DNA from: Alphaproteobacteria bacterium
GTDB taxonomy: Bacteria > Pseudomonadota > Alphaproteobacteria > JAOXRX01
Length of the DNA: 39,874 nt
Assembly (NCBI GenBank): GCA_025800285.1
Contig: JAOXRX010000102.1
Location: 1 to 39,874, forward strand
Reading direction: 5' to 3'
The translations under genes and the position numbers were made by a program. This document shows positions 1,985 through 38,223 of this stretch, in pieces. Position 1 is the first letter of the stretch. Every line of letters starts with the position of its first letter. Below the pieces are notes generated by a model, which was not told where the DNA came from, did no database searches, and saw only the letters and a program-made list of their open reading frames with translations.

Positions 1985-2554
1985 ATGGCAAAACAAATAG
2001 CATCATCATTAAAAGCAGGTAATGTAATTGAGCATAATGGTAAACTTTGGGTAATTTTAAAAACTCATTCAGTTCATCCTGGTAAGGGTAATTCGGTTAC
2101 TCAAATGGAGATTCGTGATTTAGAATCAGGAAATAAGTCTAATGAAAGATTCAGAACTACAGAAAATGTTGAAAGAGTAAGGCTTGATGAAAAAGATTAT
2201 CAATACTTATATGAAGATTCAGGGATGTATGTTCTTATGGATGAAGAAACATATGAGCAAATAAATGTTGAGGCTGAAAAAATTGGAGAGCATAATATCG
2301 CATTCTTACAAGATGGTATGATTTTAAAAGTATCTTCTTATGAAGGTAAAGTTATTTCTGTAGAGCTTCCTACTAAAGTTGTTTGTGAAGTTGTAGAAGC
2401 AGATGCTGTAGTTAAAGGGCAAACTGCATCATCATCATATAAACCAGCTGTTCTTGATAACGGAGTTAATGTTTTAGTTCCTCCACACATCACTGCAGGA
2501 ACAAAGATTGTGGTGAAGACTGAAGATGCTTCTTATGTTGAAAAAGCAAAATAA
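1985..2554 (+). CDS. efp: Translation elongation factor P
   Basis: EF-P rescues ribosomes stalled on consecutive prolines by binding between the P and E sites. The 189-residue length and three-domain layout (KOW-like N domain, then two OB domains) are normal. The tip loop contains HPGKGNSV with Lys at position 34, the residue that is beta-lysylated in many bacteria. The modification enzymes are not in this window. The C-terminal domain retains the expected pattern around VPPHITAGTKIVVKTED. AAAGGAGCAG is a clear ribosome-binding site. The gene has its own promoter and a terminator about 230 nt downstream, so it looks monocistronic. The neighbouring SuhB-family gene is a recurrent alphaproteobacterial partner. 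Confidence 0.98.
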   Translation: MAKQIASSLKAGNVIEHNGKLWVILKTHSVHPGKGNSVTQMEIRDLESGNKSNERFRTTENVERVRLDEKDYQYLYEDSGMYVLMDEETYEQINVEAEKIGEHNIAFLQDGMILKVSSYEGKVISVELPTKVVCEVVEADAVVKGQTASSSYKPAVLDNGVNVLVPPHITAGTKIVVKTEDASYVEKAK

Positions 2555-2890: not shown

Positions 2891-3664
2891 ATGGCACATT
2901 CACCACTTTTAAATGTTATGAAAACATCTGTACAAAAAGCTGGAAGAGCAATCGCTAGAGATTTTGGAGAGATAGAAAATCAAAAAATAGCATCAGTTAG
3001 CTTTTTAGAGAACGCAAAGCTTAATGCTGAAAAAGTTTTAGTTGCTGAATTGGAAAAATCAAGAGAGAACTTTGGTTATGTATCATCTACAGATAAAAAA
3101 GATGGTAAAGCTGAAGAGAGATGGTTGATAAATATAATTGGTGGAGAAGATAATTTTGCAAGAGGAATTCCTCATTGGTCTATATCTTTAGCTCTTGAAG
3201 ATGCAACAGGTGTTGTTGCTGGTGTTGTTTATGATGTTATTAGAAATGAGCTTTATTATGCTCAAAAAGGATACGGTGCTTTTGTAAATAACAGAAGACT
3301 TAAGGTTGGAGATGTAAAAGAATTTAATGATATTATAGTTCTTTCTTCTTATAATGCAAAAAGTTGTGGTGCTCCAAAAACAAGAATCGCTCAAGGGATG
3401 GCTCTTTATAACAAATGTGTTAAAGCTATAAGAAATATGGGTGATGTTGCTCTTGATATAGTGTACTTAGCTGATGGAAAAGGTGAGCTGACTTTTTCTA
3501 ATACAACACAAGCTTATGAGGTTGCTGCAGCTGGTATAATCGCAAAAGAAGCTGGTTTATTTGTTAGTACTTTAAAAGGAGAAAAAGACTTTATCTATGA
3601 AGGTAGCATTTTAGTTGCTCCAGCTAGTTTGCATATGAAGTCTCTTAAATTACTTAATGTGTAA
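2891..3664 (+). CDS. Inositol monophosphatase (SuhB) family protein, catalytic residues lost
   Basis: The 257-residue protein has the length and fold markers of the SuhB/inositol monophosphatase family. The clearest is WLINIIGGEDNFARGIPHWS (78-97), which aligns with the family's W-x-x-D-P-x-D-G-T-x-N-F-x-x-G-I-P. The two metal-binding Asp are replaced by Asn81 and Gly84. The upstream GEE/EE glutamate motif is absent (VSSTDKKDG around 64-72). The distal W-D-x-A-A-G motif reads YEVAAA (209-214), so that Asp is Glu. All four usual metal ligands are therefore changed, and phosphatase activity is unlikely. E. coli SuhB has a catalysis-independent role in rRNA antitermination and ribosome maturation, so a structural role is plausible here but unproven. 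AAGGAG precedes the ATG by 6 nt. Confidence 0.85.
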   Translation: MAHSPLLNVMKTSVQKAGRAIARDFGEIENQKIASVSFLENAKLNAEKVLVAELEKSRENFGYVSSTDKKDGKAEERWLINIIGGEDNFARGIPHWSISLALEDATGVVAGVVYDVIRNELYYAQKGYGAFVNNRRLKVGDVKEFNDIIVLSSYNAKSCGAPKTRIAQGMALYNKCVKAIRNMGDVALDIVYLADGKGELTFSNTTQAYEVAAAGIIAKEAGLFVSTLKGEKDFIYEGSILVAPASLHMKSLKLLNV

Positions 3665-3731: not shown

Positions 3732-4370
3732 ATGTTAAAGGTTTTATCCATATCTACATTATTAGTTTTAATTTCTACAGGTTTATCTCAAGCGGGATAT
3801 GTTGTTGGTAGAGATAGAATTGTTGCAGTTGAAGAAAATATGCAAGCTCCATCTTATAAAGAAGAAAAAGTTGTTGTTATTAGTAAACCAAGAATAGAAG
3901 GAGCGATAAAGCTTATATCTATGGAAGACTTTCTTGCTTTAAGTGAGGCTAAAGAAAAAGTTGTAGAATTAAAAGAGCAAGAAGAAGTTAAAAAAGAGCT
4001 TGTTAAAGCAGAAGAAGCTTTTGTTGAAGAAAAAGTTGAAGTAAAGCCTGCGACTAAAGAAGAGAATATTGCTAAAACAGTTATGCCTTCAGAAGTCTAT
4101 ATATCTTATGAAACTAATAAAACTACATTGTTAAATGAAGATGCTAAAAAGTCTCTTTCAGAAGTTGCAAGAGAAGCTGGAGATAAAACTATTAAAATAG
4201 TTACTTATGCTTCTGGAAATTCTGCAATGTCTAGAAGAGTTTCTTTATTAAGAGCATCTATTATAAAAAATAATTTAAAATCATTGGGTTTAAAAGATTC
4301 TAATTTAGAGGTTCAATCATTGGGAAATGAAATTAATATAGATCAAGCAAAGGTGTTTATAAAAGAATAA
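3732..4370 (+). CDS. Periplasmic protein with OmpA-like C-terminal domain
   Basis: A signal peptide is visible at residues 1-21, with likely cleavage after SQA. A flexible Lys/Glu/Val-rich linker follows to about residue 115. The C-terminal domain (about 118-212) matches the OmpA/Pal/MotB fold: a beta strand IKIVTYAS, then RRVSLLRASIIKNNLKSLGL, the family's LS..RA.....L...G helix. The usual peptidoglycan-binding Asp is not conserved (Ser/Gly there), while the Arg of the RA motif is kept. The stop codon overlaps the next start (TAATG), so it is translationally coupled to a MotA-like channel. It is probably the periplasmic part of a proton-channel-driven envelope complex. Function within that complex is inferred from context. 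Confidence 0.7.
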   Translation: MLKVLSISTLLVLISTGLSQAGYVVGRDRIVAVEENMQAPSYKEEKVVVISKPRIEGAIKLISMEDFLALSEAKEKVVELKEQEEVKKELVKAEEAFVEEKVEVKPATKEENIAKTVMPSEVYISYETNKTTLLNEDAKKSLSEVAREAGDKTIKIVTYASGNSAMSRRVSLLRASIIKNNLKSLGLKDSNLEVQSLGNEINIDQAKVFIKE

Positions 4371-5068
4371 TGAGAATATATGTTTACATTTTAAAAATCC
4401 TTCTATCAATTGTTTTAGCAGTTGTTGGAGGATTTTTTGCTTATGAGTATGTAATAGACTCTTTATATGAAGTTAAAGAGTTGAGTATCATTGTTGTTTC
4501 TGTTTTTGTAGTGGGTCTAATATTTTCTCTTATAAGAATAAAGATGATTAGCTCAAAGTTTAATTGGGTAGATTCTTATAGAAAACAAACTAAAGTATCT
4601 GCGGCATCAGCTGGAAAAGTTCCGTCAGTTTTTAGAAATGTTTATAAAAAATGTAATATGAATGATAAAGATAAGCTTCAAATAGAAGAGTATTATAATG
4701 CGGTTAAATCTTTAGATGTGTCGTTTTCTAGTCATAAAGATGCTGGGATGTTTTTTGTTAAGATATGTTTTTTGACAGGTTTCTTAGGAGCTTTTGTCTG
4801 TATTATAACATCTTTGGGTGATATATCTGAGATGTTTTCAAATATGAATCTAAATGTTGGAGATAGTGTGTCAACTTTATCTGAATTGCAGAGTGGTATA
4901 GCTGGTCCTTTAGCAAAATTAAAGACGGCTTTTTCACTATCATTTACTGGAATATATTTGTCTTGCTTGCTTTCATATATAGATAGACAGGCATTCTCTT
5001 TAGAGAATAAGTTTTTAGTTTATGCAGAAAATTGGTTGCTGTCATGCGTGAATTTGAAAAGCAAGTAA
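4370..5068 (+). CDS. MotA/TolQ/ExbB-like proton channel family protein
   Basis: The 232-residue protein has four hydrophobic segments (about 7-28, 38-58, 122-145 and 185-207). There is a cytoplasmic loop between TM2 and TM3, the MotA/ExbB layout. The TM3 region reads FLTGFLGAFVCIITSLGDI, and the segment before TM4 reads GIAGPLAKLKTAFSLSFTGI. Both resemble the pore helices of this superfamily. In MotA, TolQ and ExbB these helices form a pentamer around a partner that carries the proton-accepting Asp. That partner is probably encoded by the overlapping downstream gene. No flagellar genes are present, so a flagellar stator role is not supported. Confidence 0.7.
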   Translation: MRIYVYILKILLSIVLAVVGGFFAYEYVIDSLYEVKELSIIVVSVFVVGLIFSLIRIKMISSKFNWVDSYRKQTKVSAASAGKVPSVFRNVYKKCNMNDKDKLQIEEYYNAVKSLDVSFSSHKDAGMFFVKICFLTGFLGAFVCIITSLGDISEMFSNMNLNVGDSVSTLSELQSGIAGPLAKLKTAFSLSFTGIYLSCLLSYIDRQAFSLENKFLVYAENWLLSCVNLKSK

Positions 5069-5769
5069 AAAGATTTACATATAGTAATTATACAGATTTT
5101 AATAAGGTTTTTTCTTTATTAATGTTTTCCTGTATTTCTTTTATGGTTGTTGTATTTTCTTTGTTTTTATTAATAAATGTTTTTGTAAAACAGTCTCTAA
5201 CAGACAATAATACAGAAATATCAAGACTCCTTGGAGTAAAAGCTAAGCAAGAAAAAATAATATCTAATAAGAGCAAAGAGTTAAGTAAAGTCTCAAAAAG
5301 CTTAAAGTTAACAGAAAAAGATTTAAAAGATAGGATAAAAACCAATAAGTTTTTGAACTATAACTTAAAGAATGAAAAAGATAAAACTGCTAAATTAAAG
5401 AATAATGTTAGTAGTTTAGAAAAGTTGAAAACAGAAAAAGAGCAAGCTTTGATAAGTGCAGAAAGTTCTAATAAAGATTTGTTTTCTAACCTCGAGATAG
5501 GAAAAGAGGAAATAAATCTTCTTAAAGAGGATTTGGTTCAAAAGAATAAGGATATAGATTTATTAAAAGAAAAACTGGCAGAGCAAATAAGCAAAACAGA
5601 AGACTTACAAAATGATTATGATGTTTTAAAAAATAACAATGTCAGTAAGTTAGACTATATAGAAGAATTAGAAAGCAAAACAGAAGATTTAAAGTCTCAA
5701 ATAGAAAGCTTAAAAAATAAACTTTTAAATAAAAAACCCTTGAATAAAACCGAAAATGACCTTATATAA
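5044..5769 (+). CDS. MotB-like single-pass coiled-coil protein
   Basis: I choose the ATG at 5044, since the longer reading needs a TTG start inside the upstream gene. Even so it overlaps the MotA-like gene by 25 nt. The product has about 241 residues: a short basic N terminus, then YTDFNKVFSLLMF leading into one membrane helix (about 22-46), then a coiled coil of about 180 residues rich in Lys, Glu, Leu and Asn. The Y-T-D-F at the membrane entry resembles the Y-A-D-F of MotB, whose Asp binds the proton. Unlike MotB, there is no OmpA domain; a separate gene two positions upstream encodes one. The assignment rests on topology, the Asp motif and gene coupling. Confidence 0.6.
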   Translation: MREFEKQVKRFTYSNYTDFNKVFSLLMFSCISFMVVVFSLFLLINVFVKQSLTDNNTEISRLLGVKAKQEKIISNKSKELSKVSKSLKLTEKDLKDRIKTNKFLNYNLKNEKDKTAKLKNNVSSLEKLKTEKEQALISAESSNKDLFSNLEIGKEEINLLKEDLVQKNKDIDLLKEKLAEQISKTEDLQNDYDVLKNNNVSKLDYIEELESKTEDLKSQIESLKNKLLNKKPLNKTENDLI

Positions 5770-31335: not shown

Positions 31336-34300
31336 ATGTCTAATCTAATTATTACAATTTTAGGAATTGTTTTATTTGTTGTGTTGTCTGTGTCTGGAGT
31401 TATGTATGTTGACTCCAGAAGTGTTAGTGTTAGAGAAAATGAGTACTTAGTTAAATCAGGTATAAATCAATTAGTGTCAGATTATCATGTTTATAAGGTT
31501 AGAAGAAAAGAGTCTTTACCTGTTAACAATTGGAGCAGTTTTATAGAAGTGCCAAGAACTCCTGCTAACATGAGTTGGTCATATGGTTCTAAACCAGAGG
31601 GTATGTATTTCTGTTTGTCAGGAGAAATAAAAGATAGATATTTCTATGAAGATACAATAAAAATATTAGAGGATAGTTTTAACTCTGTGGTAGTTAGCAA
31701 TACTTGTGGAGAAACCTCTAATAATAAAAACTTTATGTTAGGAGATGCAAAAGCTTATACTGTTTGGGTGGATAGTACTTTTATTTCTGAAGGGTCTGAT
31801 ATAGAGAATAGCAATGTGTATGACTTCCAAGTTAAAATGATAGAAGTGGAGACAGGAAAAGAAATTAAGCTTCATGATAATCTTATTCTTCATAAGGGAT
31901 ATGATTTTTTAATAGATATAGAAATATCAGATTCTAGTGTTAAATCTACAGTTGAGCCAGTTAGTGATTTTGAAGCTGATTTTATATGTTTAGATAATTC
32001 TAAGGGATGTAATAATGGATTAAAGAGAAGGCTTAGAGTTAAATCTACATCTTTGTTTATGGATAGGGATTTAATATTAGATTTTGAAAACTCTAAAGGT
32101 AAAGTAAGAAAAATAATTCATTTAAAATCTATAGCAGCCTTTCAATGTGATGCTTTGGATCCTCTTGCTAATTTTGATAAAAGTGGAGACTTTTATCTTA
32201 TAGGAGGAACTCAAGGTTATAAAGTTGATGCAAAACTCCAGCTTTTATGTCTTTCTCAAAATCAAACTCCAGAAGTCTTAAATGCTAAATATAGATTGAT
32301 GTCAGATATAGACTTTGATATAAAACATAATTTAACAAAAACATATCAAAATGTTCAAGCAGTAGAGAATATAAATCAAACAGAAAGCTACCCATTTATT
32401 AAATCTATAAGCTCAACAGTTACCAGCAATGGAGAAGATTGGAATGGCGATGGGGCTATCGATGATATAAATACAGAAGGTTGGATGCCTCTAGGAGATT
32501 TTTCTAATGGAAGCAAACAGTTCTCTGGAGAGTTTGATGGAAACAATCATTATATTAAAAATATTTACTCAAAAAGAACAGCGGGATTTCAAGGTTTGTT
32601 TGGAGCTACACATACAAATTTTAAAGTTTATGATTTACAGGTTTTAGATTCTTATATAGAAAGCTCTGGTGATCAAATAGGGCTTTTGTCTGGTGAGGCA
32701 GATGGTGCAACAATATCTAATTGCTATGTGTCTGGTAATTTAGTTGGAAAAATCTCTAACTATGCGGGTGGGTTAATAGGGCATGTTGATGCTTCTTCAA
32801 AAATTTCTAATGTACATGTCCATGCTGATGTAGTTGTAAACTCAAATGCTTCTGCTTATGTGGGAGAGGTAATAGGTAATTTGCTGAATGGGAGTACTTT
32901 AAGTCAAGCATCTGCTAACGGAGATGTCTTTGCTAAAGCAAATACTCATGCTTTTGTTGGCGGTTTAGTCGGAGGATTTGCTACTAGTTTATCAAACAGT
33001 TATTCACTGGGTAGCGTTTATGGATATGCTTTAAATAATTATGCAATGGTTGGTGGTATATCAGGATGGAATACTCAGAATAATTTAACAATAGATAATT
33101 GCTATTCAAAAGCTCATGTCGGAGCATATACTTCTAAAAGCATATCATCTGCTGGTGGACTATATGGCGATGATAATTTAGGGGGGCTTATAATTAACAA
33201 TAGTTATGCTACAGGTAAAGTTTTAAGTTATAGTGTTGATGGTCCTGCTCGAGCTGGAGGTTTAGCAGGTGGTATGAATGCAACTAACTCTGAGATAAAT
33301 AATAGTTATGCTTATTGGGAGGTCGCTCCCAATGCTTATAGTGTTAATTCTTCAAAAGCAAATGGCGGTTTAATAGGTGTATCTCCTGCTGTAATAAATA
33401 ATGCAAATAATATATGTGAGTATGTAAGTGAATCTACCCCAACAAAATGTACTAAAGCTAATATAGCTTATATGCAAAGCTCTATAAAAGCAAATTGGAG
33501 CGATGATATTTGGGAGGATTTATCTAATGAGACTCCTAAGTTAGAGTGGGAAGTTAAAGGAGATGTGAATTCAGTATTTTCTTGGGGATGTAATCCTTCT
33601 AACCCTTTAGGAGGAATGGAAAAGGAGATTGTAGGGATAGATGAATATTATTTAATAGGGGGCTCTATGGGCTCATCAGCCAGAGCAAAAGAACATCTTT
33701 TGTGCTTATCTCAAAATCAAAATTCAGAAGTTCTTAATTCTAATTACAAGTTAACAGCAGATATAACTTTTGACAATGATTTTAGTATTTCTAAAAAATA
33801 TCAGGATATAAATAACAATATAAGCTCTATAAAAGATGAAAAGCATCCATTCTTACAAAATATAACGGTTACTCTTAGTTCTAATAATGAAGATTGGGAC
33901 GGTGATAGAGTCATTGATGGTCTTAATACTGAAGGATTTATTCCATTAGGTAACTATGCGGATGATTCTTCAAATCTATTTAAAGGAAAGTTTGAAGGAG
34001 GAAATCACTCTATTACTAACTTATATATAAATAGAGATTCAAAGAATTATCAAGGTTTATTTGGAGATATCGTTGGTCCAGGAGAAGTTAAAAACTTAAA
34101 TATTGTTAATGCATATATTAGAGGTAAAGATTCTATAGGTATTTTGAGTGGAAGATTATATTCTGCAAATGTTAATAATGTTAAAACTGACGGTCATATA
34201 AAATCAAGAGGATCTTCAGGTGGTATCATTGGAACAATGGACTCTAATGCAAAAATATCATCAAGTAACTCAGATGTATATATTTATTCCAATGAGGATG

Positions 34301-37300
34301 CTGATTCTCAATTTATAGGTGGTATTGTGGGCTCATCTTTTAATTCTACTCTGAGCAATAATAAATCTTCAGGTGATTTGCTTGCTATAGGAAGTATTGC
34401 AGGTAAATATAATTGGGGAGGTGGAATAACTGGATATTTGAGAAATACAACAGTGGATGGTTGTAGCTCATCGGTTAATGTTTTCTCTGCTAATCCAACC
34501 GCGAGTCATGGTTTTGCAGGAGGCATTTCAGGAGGATCTTATGCTTCTTCTAAAATATTAAATAGTAATAGCTCAGGGAATGTAGCTTCAGTTAATAATT
34601 ATGTTGGAGGAATAATAGGTTACTCCAACTCGTCTAGTATAGAGAACTGCCATGCTACAGGTGATATCGAAGGAAAAATTTATTATGTTGGTGGTTTGGT
34701 TGGCTATGCTTATAATACAGTAAATTTCAAAAACAGTTATGCTACAGGTAATGTAACTGGTAATAATAACTATGTGGGAGGAGCCGTAGGTAGAGCTTTT
34801 AAATCAAATCTAGAAAATATATATGCAACTGGTAATGTTATTGGTAATGGTTCATATATAGGGGGAATGGCAGGTTCTTTATCAAATGATTCTTCTGCTA
34901 GCGATTGTTATGCTGAAGGTAGTGTTAAGAATAATAAAAACTATCATACAGGAGGGTTAATAGGAGGAATATCTAATAATTCTACTGTTAGTGGATGTTA
35001 CTCTAAAGGGCAGGTTAGTACTGTCAATCATTATGCTGGAGGCTTAATAGGTTATGCCAATGGGTCAACTATTAGCGATTCTTATTCAGAAAGTATTGTT
35101 TTAGCTCCAGGCAAAAATTATGTTGGAGGGTTGATAGGTTATGCTAACGGAGCAACTATTAACTCTAGCTATGCTGTTGGTAATGTCTTGGGTGCATATA
35201 ATGTTGGTGGCTTAATTGGACCAATTAGGGGAAGTACAGTTAAAAATACATATGCAAAAGGTAAGGTTGTTGGATCATCTAGTAATGTTGGTGGTTTAAT
35301 CGGAGGTTTTGCCGATAGTAATACATTAGAAAACAGTTATGCTATAGGAGATGTTGTTGGAAGTGGTTATAAAAATGGAGCTCTTGTTGGTGGTCTTTAT
35401 AGTAGTAGTGGTAGTTTGATTATAAAGAAATCATATGCTGTAAATACTAGTTTAACAGCTATAGGAGACAGAGTGTTTGATAAATATAATTATTGCTCTG
35501 TTGGAGTTGATAAAGATTGTGATATTACCTATAATCCTTACTCTATAAAAGATGCTTGGGATGATAATATTTGGGAAGACTTGTTCGAGGAGGTTCCTAA
35601 ACTTGAGTGGCAGGAGGATGGGGATATATCTTCAGGATATGCTTGGTCTTGTAATTCTGCTGATCCTTTGTCTAATATAGATATAGATTCTGGATACTAT
35701 ATGATAGGTGGTATAAAGGGTAATGCTGCATTAGCAAAAAAACAATTAGTATGTTTATCAAATAATCAAAACTATAATGTGTTGTCATCAAACTATAAAT
35801 TAACAGCAAATATTGATTTTAAAGAAAATCCATCTGAAGAAGACTGGAATGGAGATGATTCTCCTGACGGGTCTTCTACTAATGGATGGAGTCCTATTGG
35901 TTATAATAGTAGTAATCGTTTTGTTGGAGCCTTTGATGGACAAGGTCATTATATAAAAAATTTATATATATCTAGTACAGGTGATAACAAGGGTTTATTT
36001 GGTCTTGTATCTGGAGCAATAATTAAAGATTTAGGTCTTTCTAATGTTAATATTAAAGGGAGAACTAATATAGGAGCTCTTGCGGGTCATATAACTAAAA
36101 GTACTTCTTCTGTTAGTGGAGTTTTAGTTAAAGGATCAATATCTGCAAGAGGTAATAACACAGGAGGGTTAATAGGTAATGTTAACTCTGGAGTAAGTGT
36201 TTTAAATAGTTATTCTGTAACAAATATCTCTTCAACAGGAAGTTATATAGGAGGACTTGTTGGTAAGATTTCAAACAATAGTAAAATTATTGATAGCTAT
36301 TCCTTATCAATAGTAAGTGGGGGCTCTATAGTGGGCGGCTTGTTAGGTGGCTCTGTGGCATCCTCAAGTAGTCAAGCAACTATAACCAATAGTTATGCTT
36401 ATTGGAGTACTGCTCCAAAAGGTAGTTCTAGAATAGGTGGTTTAGTTGGAAGTTCAGATAATATTCTTTTAAATAATAATTCAGATAAATGTGAGTATGT
36501 AGATGAATATACTCCTACTAGTTGCCCTGTTGCAGAGTTAACATATGAATATGGTAAGATTAAAAGTGGTTGGAGTGATGGTGTTTGGGAAAATTTATCA
36601 GATTTAACTCCTAAATTAGAGTGGGAAGTAGCCGGGGATATAAAATCTGTTATATCTGGCACATGGTTTTGTGATGCTTTAAATCCCGTATCTAATTTAG
36701 AAAGAGATGCTGATGGATATTATTTAATTGGAGGTAGCTTAGGAGATTCTGACTTAGCAAAAAAACAATTTTTATGTTTAAGTAATTATCAAAATAAGGC
36801 TTCATTAGAAAATGTATCATATAAGTTAAAAGCGGATATTAACTTTAATGTTAATCCTGCTTTAGAAGACTGGGATGGGGACGGTTCTCCAGATGGTACT
36901 AGTGCAGATGGTTGGTTTGCATTTGGTTTTTCTAGTAATGTAAGATTCAAAAATAGTGTTTTTGATGGTGAGGGCAATAAAATAAATAATCTATACATGA
37001 ACAATTCTTATTCTAATCAAGGATTGTTTGGATATGTTCTTAATTCTACTGTAAAGAATATTGCTTTAGTTAATGCAAATATTACAGCATTAAATAATGT
37101 TGGATCCTTAGTTGGTAACCTTAAAGGTTCGATAATAGAAAAAAGTTTTTCTTCAGGAACTATAAAAGGAAATGGAAATAAGGTGGGATCTTTAATTGGT
37201 AGAGCTTATGCTAATTCTAAAATATATGACAGCTATTCTTTTGGAATTGTGAGCGGTTCAGTTAGTATAGGAGGATTAATAGGCTCTTTAAAAAATGGAA

Positions 37301-38223
37301 GCCATGTTTATAACTCATATTCTAAAGCAAAAGTATCAGGTACAAAGAATGTAGCAGGAGTAATAGGTTCTTCTACAGCCAAGACCTCTAATAGAAATAG
37401 TGTAACAAATAGCTATTCTTATTGGAGTATAAAGCCTGTTGGTAACAGTAATATCGGAGGGCTTATAGGCAGGACTACAAATACATACATAAATAACCCG
37501 TATGATTTATGTGAATATTTAAAAGGTGAATCTCGTAAAATCTGCACTAGTGATAATGTTTTTGATATACATGCTGGCGAAGGAGTTTATTTAGATTTTG
37601 ATGGTTCTGATGATTATATATCTTTGCCGTTATTTGATCAAAGTTCAATAATTAAAATGAGAGCTACAGGTAAATTTAATTCAATTAATAATAAAACCTA
37701 TGAGACCATTGTTGCTTCAATTTCGTCCTCAAGTGGGGTTGTAAAGGGTGCTTGGTTGGGGTACAATGGTATAAGCGGTAAGTTTAAAGCTTATATAGGA
37801 GATAGTAGCAATTATGTGGAAACATCTTCAACATACTCTTTAAATGGAGTAAATTATTATGATGTAGAAGTTAGAGTTAGTGGCGGTAATTTTGCTATAT
37901 GGGTAAATGGAGAAAAAAACAGTATTGACAAATCGTTAGAAACAGTTAATAATCCTAATATAACAAGGATTGCCAAAGGAGATGGTGTCTCAGATGATCT
38001 AATGGCAGGTAAATTTGCTTTTGTAGAGTTAGAGTCTTCTAATAATCATAAAGTATATTTTGCAAATGAGAATGGAAAGTTTGAGGATTTAAATACAAAA
38101 TTAGAGTATAATAACTCTGGAAGTGGAAGTTTAACAGTTACTAATTTAGAGGGATGGGACTCTGGTATTTGGAATGATTTGAAAGTTACTCCAACTCCAA
38201 CTTTGAAAGTAATATATCATTAA
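31336..38223 (+). CDS. Giant membrane-anchored GLUG-repeat surface protein with LamG-like domain
   Basis: The product has 2295 residues. An N-terminal membrane helix (about 4-25) and a pilin-like domain to about 265 match the neighbouring gene product. Four blocks follow, each opening with a Cys-anchored C(N/D)..(D/N)P(L/V) segment and YYLIGG...LCLSQNQ (starts near residues 271, 752, 1439 and 1779). Each then has EDWDGDG..DG, FDG..H.I.NLYI and GLFG, then many GLUG motifs such as GGLIGYANGSTI alternating with NSYATGNV. Blocks end in W.DD.WEDL...PKLEW. GLUG repeats occur in extracellular adhesins. The fourth block is interrupted by a LamG-like domain (about 2085-2240, starting YLDFDGSDDYISLP). 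There is no leader of ordinary type IV pilin form. It is probably exposed on the cell surface. AGAGGA precedes the ATG. Confidence 0.88.
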   Translation: MSNLIITILGIVLFVVLSVSGVMYVDSRSVSVRENEYLVKSGINQLVSDYHVYKVRRKESLPVNNWSSFIEVPRTPANMSWSYGSKPEGMYFCLSGEIKDRYFYEDTIKILEDSFNSVVVSNTCGETSNNKNFMLGDAKAYTVWVDSTFISEGSDIENSNVYDFQVKMIEVETGKEIKLHDNLILHKGYDFLIDIEISDSSVKSTVEPVSDFEADFICLDNSKGCNNGLKRRLRVKSTSLFMDRDLILDFENSKGKVRKIIHLKSIAAFQCDALDPLANFDKSGDFYLIGGTQGYKVDAKLQLLCLSQNQTPEVLNAKYRLMSDIDFDIKHNLTKTYQNVQAVENINQTESYPFIKSISSTVTSNGEDWNGDGAIDDINTEGWMPLGDFSNGSKQFSGEFDGNNHYIKNIYSKRTAGFQGLFGATHTNFKVYDLQVLDSYIESSGDQIGLLSGEADGATISNCYVSGNLVGKISNYAGGLIGHVDASSKISNVHVHADVVVNSNASAYVGEVIGNLLNGSTLSQASANGDVFAKANTHAFVGGLVGGFATSLSNSYSLGSVYGYALNNYAMVGGISGWNTQNNLTIDNCYSKAHVGAYTSKSISSAGGLYGDDNLGGLIINNSYATGKVLSYSVDGPARAGGLAGGMNATNSEINNSYAYWEVAPNAYSVNSSKANGGLIGVSPAVINNANNICEYVSESTPTKCTKANIAYMQSSIKANWSDDIWEDLSNETPKLEWEVKGDVNSVFSWGCNPSNPLGGMEKEIVGIDEYYLIGGSMGSSARAKEHLLCLSQNQNSEVLNSNYKLTADITFDNDFSISKKYQDINNNISSIKDEKHPFLQNITVTLSSNNEDWDGDRVIDGLNTEGFIPLGNYADDSSNLFKGKFEGGNHSITNLYINRDSKNYQGLFGDIVGPGEVKNLNIVNAYIRGKDSIGILSGRLYSANVNNVKTDGHIKSRGSSGGIIGTMDSNAKISSSNSDVYIYSNEDADSQFIGGIVGSSFNSTLSNNKSSGDLLAIGSIAGKYNWGGGITGYLRNTTVDGCSSSVNVFSANPTASHGFAGGISGGSYASSKILNSNSSGNVASVNNYVGGIIGYSNSSSIENCHATGDIEGKIYYVGGLVGYAYNTVNFKNSYATGNVTGNNNYVGGAVGRAFKSNLENIYATGNVIGNGSYIGGMAGSLSNDSSASDCYAEGSVKNNKNYHTGGLIGGISNNSTVSGCYSKGQVSTVNHYAGGLIGYANGSTISDSYSESIVLAPGKNYVGGLIGYANGATINSSYAVGNVLGAYNVGGLIGPIRGSTVKNTYAKGKVVGSSSNVGGLIGGFADSNTLENSYAIGDVVGSGYKNGALVGGLYSSSGSLIIKKSYAVNTSLTAIGDRVFDKYNYCSVGVDKDCDITYNPYSIKDAWDDNIWEDLFEEVPKLEWQEDGDISSGYAWSCNSADPLSNIDIDSGYYMIGGIKGNAALAKKQLVCLSNNQNYNVLSSNYKLTANIDFKENPSEEDWNGDDSPDGSSTNGWSPIGYNSSNRFVGAFDGQGHYIKNLYISSTGDNKGLFGLVSGAIIKDLGLSNVNIKGRTNIGALAGHITKSTSSVSGVLVKGSISARGNNTGGLIGNVNSGVSVLNSYSVTNISSTGSYIGGLVGKISNNSKIIDSYSLSIVSGGSIVGGLLGGSVASSSSQATITNSYAYWSTAPKGSSRIGGLVGSSDNILLNNNSDKCEYVDEYTPTSCPVAELTYEYGKIKSGWSDGVWENLSDLTPKLEWEVAGDIKSVISGTWFCDALNPVSNLERDADGYYLIGGSLGDSDLAKKQFLCLSNYQNKASLENVSYKLKADINFNVNPALEDWDGDGSPDGTSADGWFAFGFSSNVRFKNSVFDGEGNKINNLYMNNSYSNQGLFGYVLNSTVKNIALVNANITALNNVGSLVGNLKGSIIEKSFSSGTIKGNGNKVGSLIGRAYANSKIYDSYSFGIVSGSVSIGGLIGSLKNGSHVYNSYSKAKVSGTKNVAGVIGSSTAKTSNRNSVTNSYSYWSIKPVGNSNIGGLIGRTTNTYINNPYDLCEYLKGESRKICTSDNVFDIHAGEGVYLDFDGSDDYISLPLFDQSSIIKMRATGKFNSINNKTYETIVASISSSSGVVKGAWLGYNGISGKFKAYIGDSSNYVETSSTYSLNGVNYYDVEVRVSGGNFAIWVNGEKNSIDKSLETVNNPNITRIAKGDGVSDDLMAGKFAFVELESSNNHKVYFANENGKFEDLNTKLEYNNSGSGSLTVTNLEGWDSGIWNDLKVTPTPTLKVIYH

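Follow-up and report, generated by a model that had tools for sequence, protein, structure and literature searches.

Three overlapping genes in the window, as we call the whole 39,874-nt stretch of DNA that was analysed, probably encode a lineage-specific, stripped-down descendant of an alphaproteobacterial motor locus that pairs a MotA-like protein with a MotB-like protein of the PRK09039 family. The complex would be of the 5:2 type, rewired and anchorless, with a long rod in the periplasm. By sequence and gene order, the three genes (Table 1) represent a diverged version of a locus that is conserved in Alphaproteobacteria and reads efp, IMPase-like, secreted OmpA-like, MotA-like and MotB-like (NCBIfam PRK09039). 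The parent system occurs in nearly two thirds of the sampled alphaproteobacterial genomes, often beside housekeeping genes.

The three overlapping genes are genuine and coding and do not result from chance. Genes 1 and 2 overlap in a TAATG at 4368-4372 and genes 2 and 3 by 25 nt (5044-5068), in agreement with the overlaps given in a first-pass annotation of the same DNA. For the MotA-like and coiled-coil genes the codon score is >0 solely in the annotated frame, and for the OmpA-like gene the annotated frame has by far the top score; the scores of all three lie inside, or at the top of, the range for 24 other genes of the window. Gene 3 was read from the ATG at 5044; an in-frame TTG is also present at 5032. 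Since dnaJ starts 34 nt downstream of gene 3, a hidden C-terminal domain would have no space. Gene 3 does not look dead, because its coding bias, the gene overlaps and a heptad rod of 193 residues are all intact. The source genome is 97%-complete and 1.1 Mb in size; its taxonomic order is represented in the analysis by this one genome, and a truncation could conceivably stem from misassembly. Elsewhere in the window (31336-38220) lies a gene for a protein of 2295 aa, very large for a 1.1-Mb genome, that contains GLUG motifs plus an M26-peptidase N-terminal-like region.

Table 1. Genes, conserved neighbours and residues discussed in the text, numbered from the first nucleotide of the window
Feature	Position	Strand	Remark
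efp (elongation factor P), conserved neighbour	1985..2554	+	Relatives match in syntenic position
IMPase-like gene, conserved neighbour	2891..3664	+	PF00459, E 1e-30
Gene 1, secreted OmpA-like protein, 212 aa	3732-4370	+	Orthologue of the locus's separate OmpA-like gene
Gene 2, MotA-like four-helix channel-type protein, 232 aa	4370-5068	+	Without the cytoplasmic tail of relatives
Ala141 codon, gene 2	4790..4792	+	TM3 Thr of GLLGT in relatives
Gene 3, MotB-like, TM helix and coiled coil only, 241 aa from ATG	5044-5769	+	
Asp18 codon (YTDF), gene 3	5095..5097	+	Read from sequence
Leu25 codon, gene 3	5116..5118	+	On relatives' invariant Asp column in the best ungapped register
Heptad coiled coil, 193 residues, gene 3	5188..5766	+	Called from periodicity

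Distribution and neighbourhood of the locus

A single-sequence search with protein 2 in 58 alphaproteobacterial genomes, one per family, gave one match each in 38 (the window's own genome, G000, counted), and around most of these matches the order efp, IMPase-like, OmpA-like, MotA-like, MotB-like was found. With gene 2 as a single-protein query against genome contigs, no relative was found. Among 80 named loci collected with a MotB-like profile, a MotA-like gene was present in 77, an OmpA-like gene in 51, an IMPase-like gene in 52 and efp in 49; these are counts of genes inside the fetched stretch, and several of the loci end at contig ends. Among the genera in the locus records are Azospirillum, Sneathiella, Terasakiella, Magnetovibrio and Rhodobium; a small number of records are titled as gamma-, beta- or deltaproteobacteria, titles that we took as given and behind which contamination is possible. 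Gene 3 of two scanned relatives is assigned to NCBIfam PRK09039, 'peptidoglycan -binding protein'.

The MotA-like and MotB-like proteins co-occur across the Alphaproteobacteria. Of 385 genomes of the class, 252 were matched by a MotA-like profile that takes in window protein 2 (A1) and 248 by one built, without the window, on the membrane helix of the MotB-like protein (A6); comparison of the two lists by eye gave 246 genomes with both. Six genomes matched the MotA-like profile only (G000, G006, G032, G074, G227 and G345) and two the MotB-helix profile only (G128 and G312). Across a sample of the whole phylum A6 matched 117 of 398 genomes; most of the strong matches again came from Alphaproteobacteria, and six with E <1e-20 fell outside the class.

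We rejected the notion of a B-subunit loss in small genomes: a MotB-like profile (A2) matched in 23 of the 25 genomes searched, the two without a match being the window's genome and G074. In one of the 23, G006, the A2 match is only of the OmpA type, and the helix profile found no MotB-like helix anywhere in that genome. At the G006 locus (L043/L214; the genome is 99%-complete) efp, the IMPase-like gene and the MotA-like gene are present, an A subunit without a visible partner. At the small-genome loci L074, L075, L078, L081-L087, L089, L091, L096, L099 and L100 the MotA-like and MotB-like genes are unlinked, and in those of the genomes that were searched the MotB-like gene sits elsewhere. At L101, L102/L212 and L103/L213, MotA-like ORFs of ~574, 1336 and 1499 aa lie beside MotB-like proteins with WP(G/S/V)..D (only 191 aa long in L101), and a TolC-like gene was called by eye at each. 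There the motor pair may perhaps be connected with type I secretion and be broadly comparable to SiiAB, a system named in PMC12204202.

The IMPase-like neighbour in the window is likely a pseudoenzyme, as in a motif alignment its metal motif DPLDGT reads NIIGGE and WD reads YE. Weaker departures from the motif stand beside the motor in L174, L178, L116, L120, L166 and L167; a pattern for the motif matched in 82 of 92 loci, some of the misses being trivial.

The three proteins of the module

The first-pass annotation had called protein 2 a MotA-like channel protein, and its membership of the MotA/ExbB superfamily, with a MotA/TolQ/ExbB fold, is supported by its relatives and by its predicted structure. 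When the fetched ORFs were searched with a profile made without the window, protein 2 was matched at E 6e-27. PF01618 gave no match to the window protein even with the E limit at 10; with the limit at 1 it matched 33 of the 37 sequences in the family alignment, the window protein being among the four others. An AlphaFold2 model from 54 sequences (pLDDT 89.7, pTM 0.81) has the four-helix fold of A subunits, and its top Foldseek matches were TolQ, ExbB, MotA and ZorA, mostly at probability 1.00 and none with an E-value <0.001. VIA gave Z values of 12.3 for ExbB, 10.7 for ZorA and 9.8 for MotA, where by VIA's own note Z 9-12 is attainable by chance among helical bundles; designed and unrelated helical bundles also reached 8-10.

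Within this fold, protein 2 has changed extensively. At columns near-invariant in the A1 alignment (the same in >=90% of relatives; one weakly matching row, L065, excluded) it departs at 28 of 45, and the next worst relative at 11. In a second alignment, A5, which holds 53 of 74 MotA-like references (13 of the 74 plus seven more were left out to limit the size of the alignment), it departs at 44 of 69, the next worst relative again at 11. As controls from the same locus, the window's EF-P differs in 7 of 48 columns, the IMPase-like protein in 34 of 68; the figure for EF-P indicates that the divergence of protein 2 is not simply genome-wide, though the IMPase-like protein shares such change. 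The channel Thr of GLLGT in TM3, present in 36/36 relatives in A1 and 53/53 in A5, is Ala141 in the window. TolQ and ExbB have this Thr, and flagellar MotA differs at that point. The Gly at 144 reads Cys and that at 183 Lys, while G137, G140, P180, S191, G194 and the Thr-Ala-Phe stretch of TM4 (T186-A187-F188) are kept. The C-terminal tail is missing, with 10 residues past Trp222 as against 12-178 in the 36 relatives.

In protein 3, Y16-T17-D18-F19 is followed by a single hydrophobic segment and then by coiled coil only, as had been read before. A domain search found no OmpA domain in it; gene 3 of relatives carries one in 32 of 33 cases, the exception (L049) ending at a contig end. By this comparison, gene 3 of the window has lost its OmpA anchor. 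Its orthology is suggested by position, layout and a weak alignment: the whole MotB-like profile matched it at E 6e-6, with much of the alignment in the coiled coil, and in a whole-genome search with the B-helix profile it was the best match in its own genome, a weak one (9.4 bits, E 1.8). The hydrophobic period of the coil is exactly 3.50 over its 193 residues, which 0 of 2000 shuffles reached, and 21 of 23 sliding windows share one phase. The coils of 124 relatives measure 112-535 residues (median 220), and six of these relatives have a stronger heptad signal.

The Asp of the relatives' helix motif, WPGFVD, is kept in 33/33 relatives chosen by position and independently of the motif; none of them departs at Trp16, Gly18 or Asp21 (numbered as in the first sequence). 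When the window helix was scored against the relatives in 24 registers, one ungapped register was positive (+7.6 bits), with Leu25 on the Asp column, and the other 23 were negative. The B-helix match (model 20-57) likewise places that column on Leu25. A DNA pattern encoding WPGFVD was found nowhere in the window's genome. By hydropathy over 21 residues, the Asp offset from the helix centre is 16 in the window against 7-15 in relatives; over 23 or 25 residues it falls inside their range. The first-pass annotation had likened YTDF to the proton-binding YADF of MotB. YTDF is there, and relatives do conserve an Asp, but their Asp column holds Leu25 in the window and YTDF lies seven residues upstream, which makes the likeness doubtful; Asp18 is probably not equivalent to MotB's Asp.

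Protein 1 begins with a stretch that by eye resembles a signal peptide, and its OmpA match is sub-threshold (E 5e-5; 23.9 bits, the cut-off being 27.2). It scored 38.6 bits against a profile of the separate OmpA-like family (A3c) and -1.7 bits against the MotB-type OmpA domain (A2c); judged by these scores, gene 1 is a member of the separate family and not MotB's domain. An OmpA-type domain thus does exist as a separate secreted protein, as had been proposed, but it is probably no more the equivalent of MotB's own than is the window's Asp. In 23 of 24 scanned members of the separate family, the window's included, OmpA was matched. The Asp of Pal-type OmpA domains serves to bind the wall. At that place the separate family mostly has Tyr-Ala-Ser or similar, so protein 1 may also fail to bind the wall. 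The window's genome has three OmpA domains, in Pal, in a 397-aa lipoprotein-like protein and in gene 1.

Proposed complex and alternative readings

The complex that we favour would share the architecture of other 5:2 motors. In the inner membrane, five subunits of protein 2 would enclose a pair of protein 3 subunits, whose coiled coils, paired, would reach up to ~28 nm through the periplasm if each 193-residue coil is one straight rod, and protein 1 would be a soluble periplasmic partner. As it has no wall-binding domain, the rod could not serve as a wall-fixed stator; it may be an unattached stalk or a strut, broadly resembling TolA. In such motors the B-helix Asp is as a rule coordinated by a Thr ring of the A pentamer, according to PMC12204202. 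It is unlikely that protons drive the complex in the usual manner: it may have become uncoupled, or the role of the missing Asp may have passed to Asp18, two turns further down the helix on the same side. The loss of both the Asp column and the TM3 Thr argues for uncoupling, whereas the TM4 Thr, which is retained, and the position of Asp18 on the same face make a moved ion site possible; between an uncoupled or strongly rewired complex and a moved Asp18 site we lean slightly to the former. The intact heptads argue against decay.

A working proton motor, in which a shift by seven residues let Asp18 take the place of the canonical Asp and channel residues changed alongside, is a less likely alternative. 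Asp18 sits exactly seven residues, or two helical turns, upstream of Leu25 on the same helical face, YTDF resembles YADF, TM4 Thr186 and Pro180 are retained, and a seven-residue insertion just past Asp18 lifts the raw score from 7.6 to 17.0 bits before gap cost. However, a gap so long costs by our estimate about what it gains, and such an insertion was seen in 0/150 relatives: the spacing between Asp and coil is without indel in 147, and the other three have a two-residue deletion. (These 150 boxes were found by a pattern that requires Asp, the unbiased count being 33/33, and some genomes are counted twice; left out were six of 156 loci, namely L168 and L175 with the N-terminus cut, L077 with unknown bases, L137, which reads WPGXVD, and L058 and L187, which the script did not resolve.) The replaced TM3 Thr, Lys for Gly183 and the presence of Lys21 one turn from Asp18 also speak against a moved site. 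More doubtful is the further picture of a motor without wall anchor whose proton-binding Asp moved exactly two helical turns and whose B-subunit pair, a free coiled-coil rod as long as the periplasm, acts by rotation or pulling on either the outer membrane or the secreted OmpA-like protein; if true, a stator would have been turned into a rotor.

It is unlikely that the module is a decaying motor remnant on its way out of a small genome. Such decay would account for the many altered near-invariant residues of protein 2, for the absent tail, anchor and Asp column, and for an IMPase neighbour that lacks its metal motif too, but three overlapping frames remain intact with normal codon bias, the fold of protein 2 is retained in the model and the heptads persist across all 193 residues. 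A Zorya-type phage defence pair is highly improbable: ZorA chains are among the fold matches of protein 2, ZorA matched weakly (11.3 and 11.7 bits) and a long tail is common to ZorA and the relatives, but the scores are far under the NCBIfam cut-off of 100, no effector was found among the seven window proteins scanned, and the position beside efp is fixed across the class. The idea, raised in the first-pass annotation, that MotB was split into two genes with protein 1 as its detached OmpA domain can hardly be upheld, for although one secreted OmpA-like protein adjoins one OmpA-less MotB-like protein, relatives hold both the separate OmpA-like gene and a full MotB-like protein, and the profile scores of protein 1 contradict it.

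As an anchorless descendant of the motor locus, the window's version would be a natural deletion series in one locus that has lost the anchor, the tail, the canonical Asp and the TM3 Thr but kept the rod and the gene overlaps. This makes it testable which parts of a 5:2 motor serve work and which serve building across the envelope, and the shrunken locus offers a natural test of what such motors require.

Relation to known systems

No flagellar genes are near the module, as was noted earlier, and the flagellar export protein FlhA (PF00771) was not found in the whole 97%-complete genome; the control search matched in 4 of 14 genomes. Protein 2 is like MotA/TolQ/ExbB (PF01618) in its model fold and kept residues, and differs in having no direct Pfam match, Ala in place of the TM3 Thr at 141 and no cytoplasmic tail. 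ZorAB likewise has a four-helix A subunit, and shares with the window's relatives the long A-subunit tail and an OmpA-bearing B subunit; in the window both tail and anchor are absent.

With TolQRA/Tol-Pal the module shares a predicted TolQ-like pentamer protein and a long helical periplasmic element, but gene 3 lacks a TolA-type C-terminal domain. The window's genome also has Pal and, downstream of a thioesterase-like gene, ordinary TolQ, TolR and TolA-like genes, and the three-gene module is therefore not its Tol system. The vWA force transducers that enter TolQ-like pentamers, as described in PMC12204202, are likewise non-standard B partners of a TolQ-like channel, but they retain the proton-binding Asp and have a vWA domain.

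A 2025 survey in mBio (PMC12505986) classes non-flagellar MotAB relatives as 'generic ion transporters' and says that their B subunits lack the OmpA-homologous motif; the word Alphaproteobacteria is absent from the portion of its text consulted. The PRK09039 pair, a non-flagellar MotA-like protein with an OmpA-bearing B subunit, is at odds with that statement. PRK09039 is named once, in a table, in the consulted part of PMC8508746, and our literature search found no functional study of the MotA-like/PRK09039 pair. The earlier view that such a machine is undescribed is supported as regards function; databases know the pair by name and domain, but apparently not by what it does. With the PRK09039 family (NCBIfam NF006542-NF006546) and its MotA-like gene, the module has in common the locus order, a TM helix followed by a long coiled coil, and the MotA-like partner. 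Window protein 3 differs in being without WPGFVD and the C-terminal OmpA domain, and against NF006543 it scored 17.2 bits, under the cut-off of 305. The anchorless form found in the window would thus be a new variant of the PRK09039 pair.
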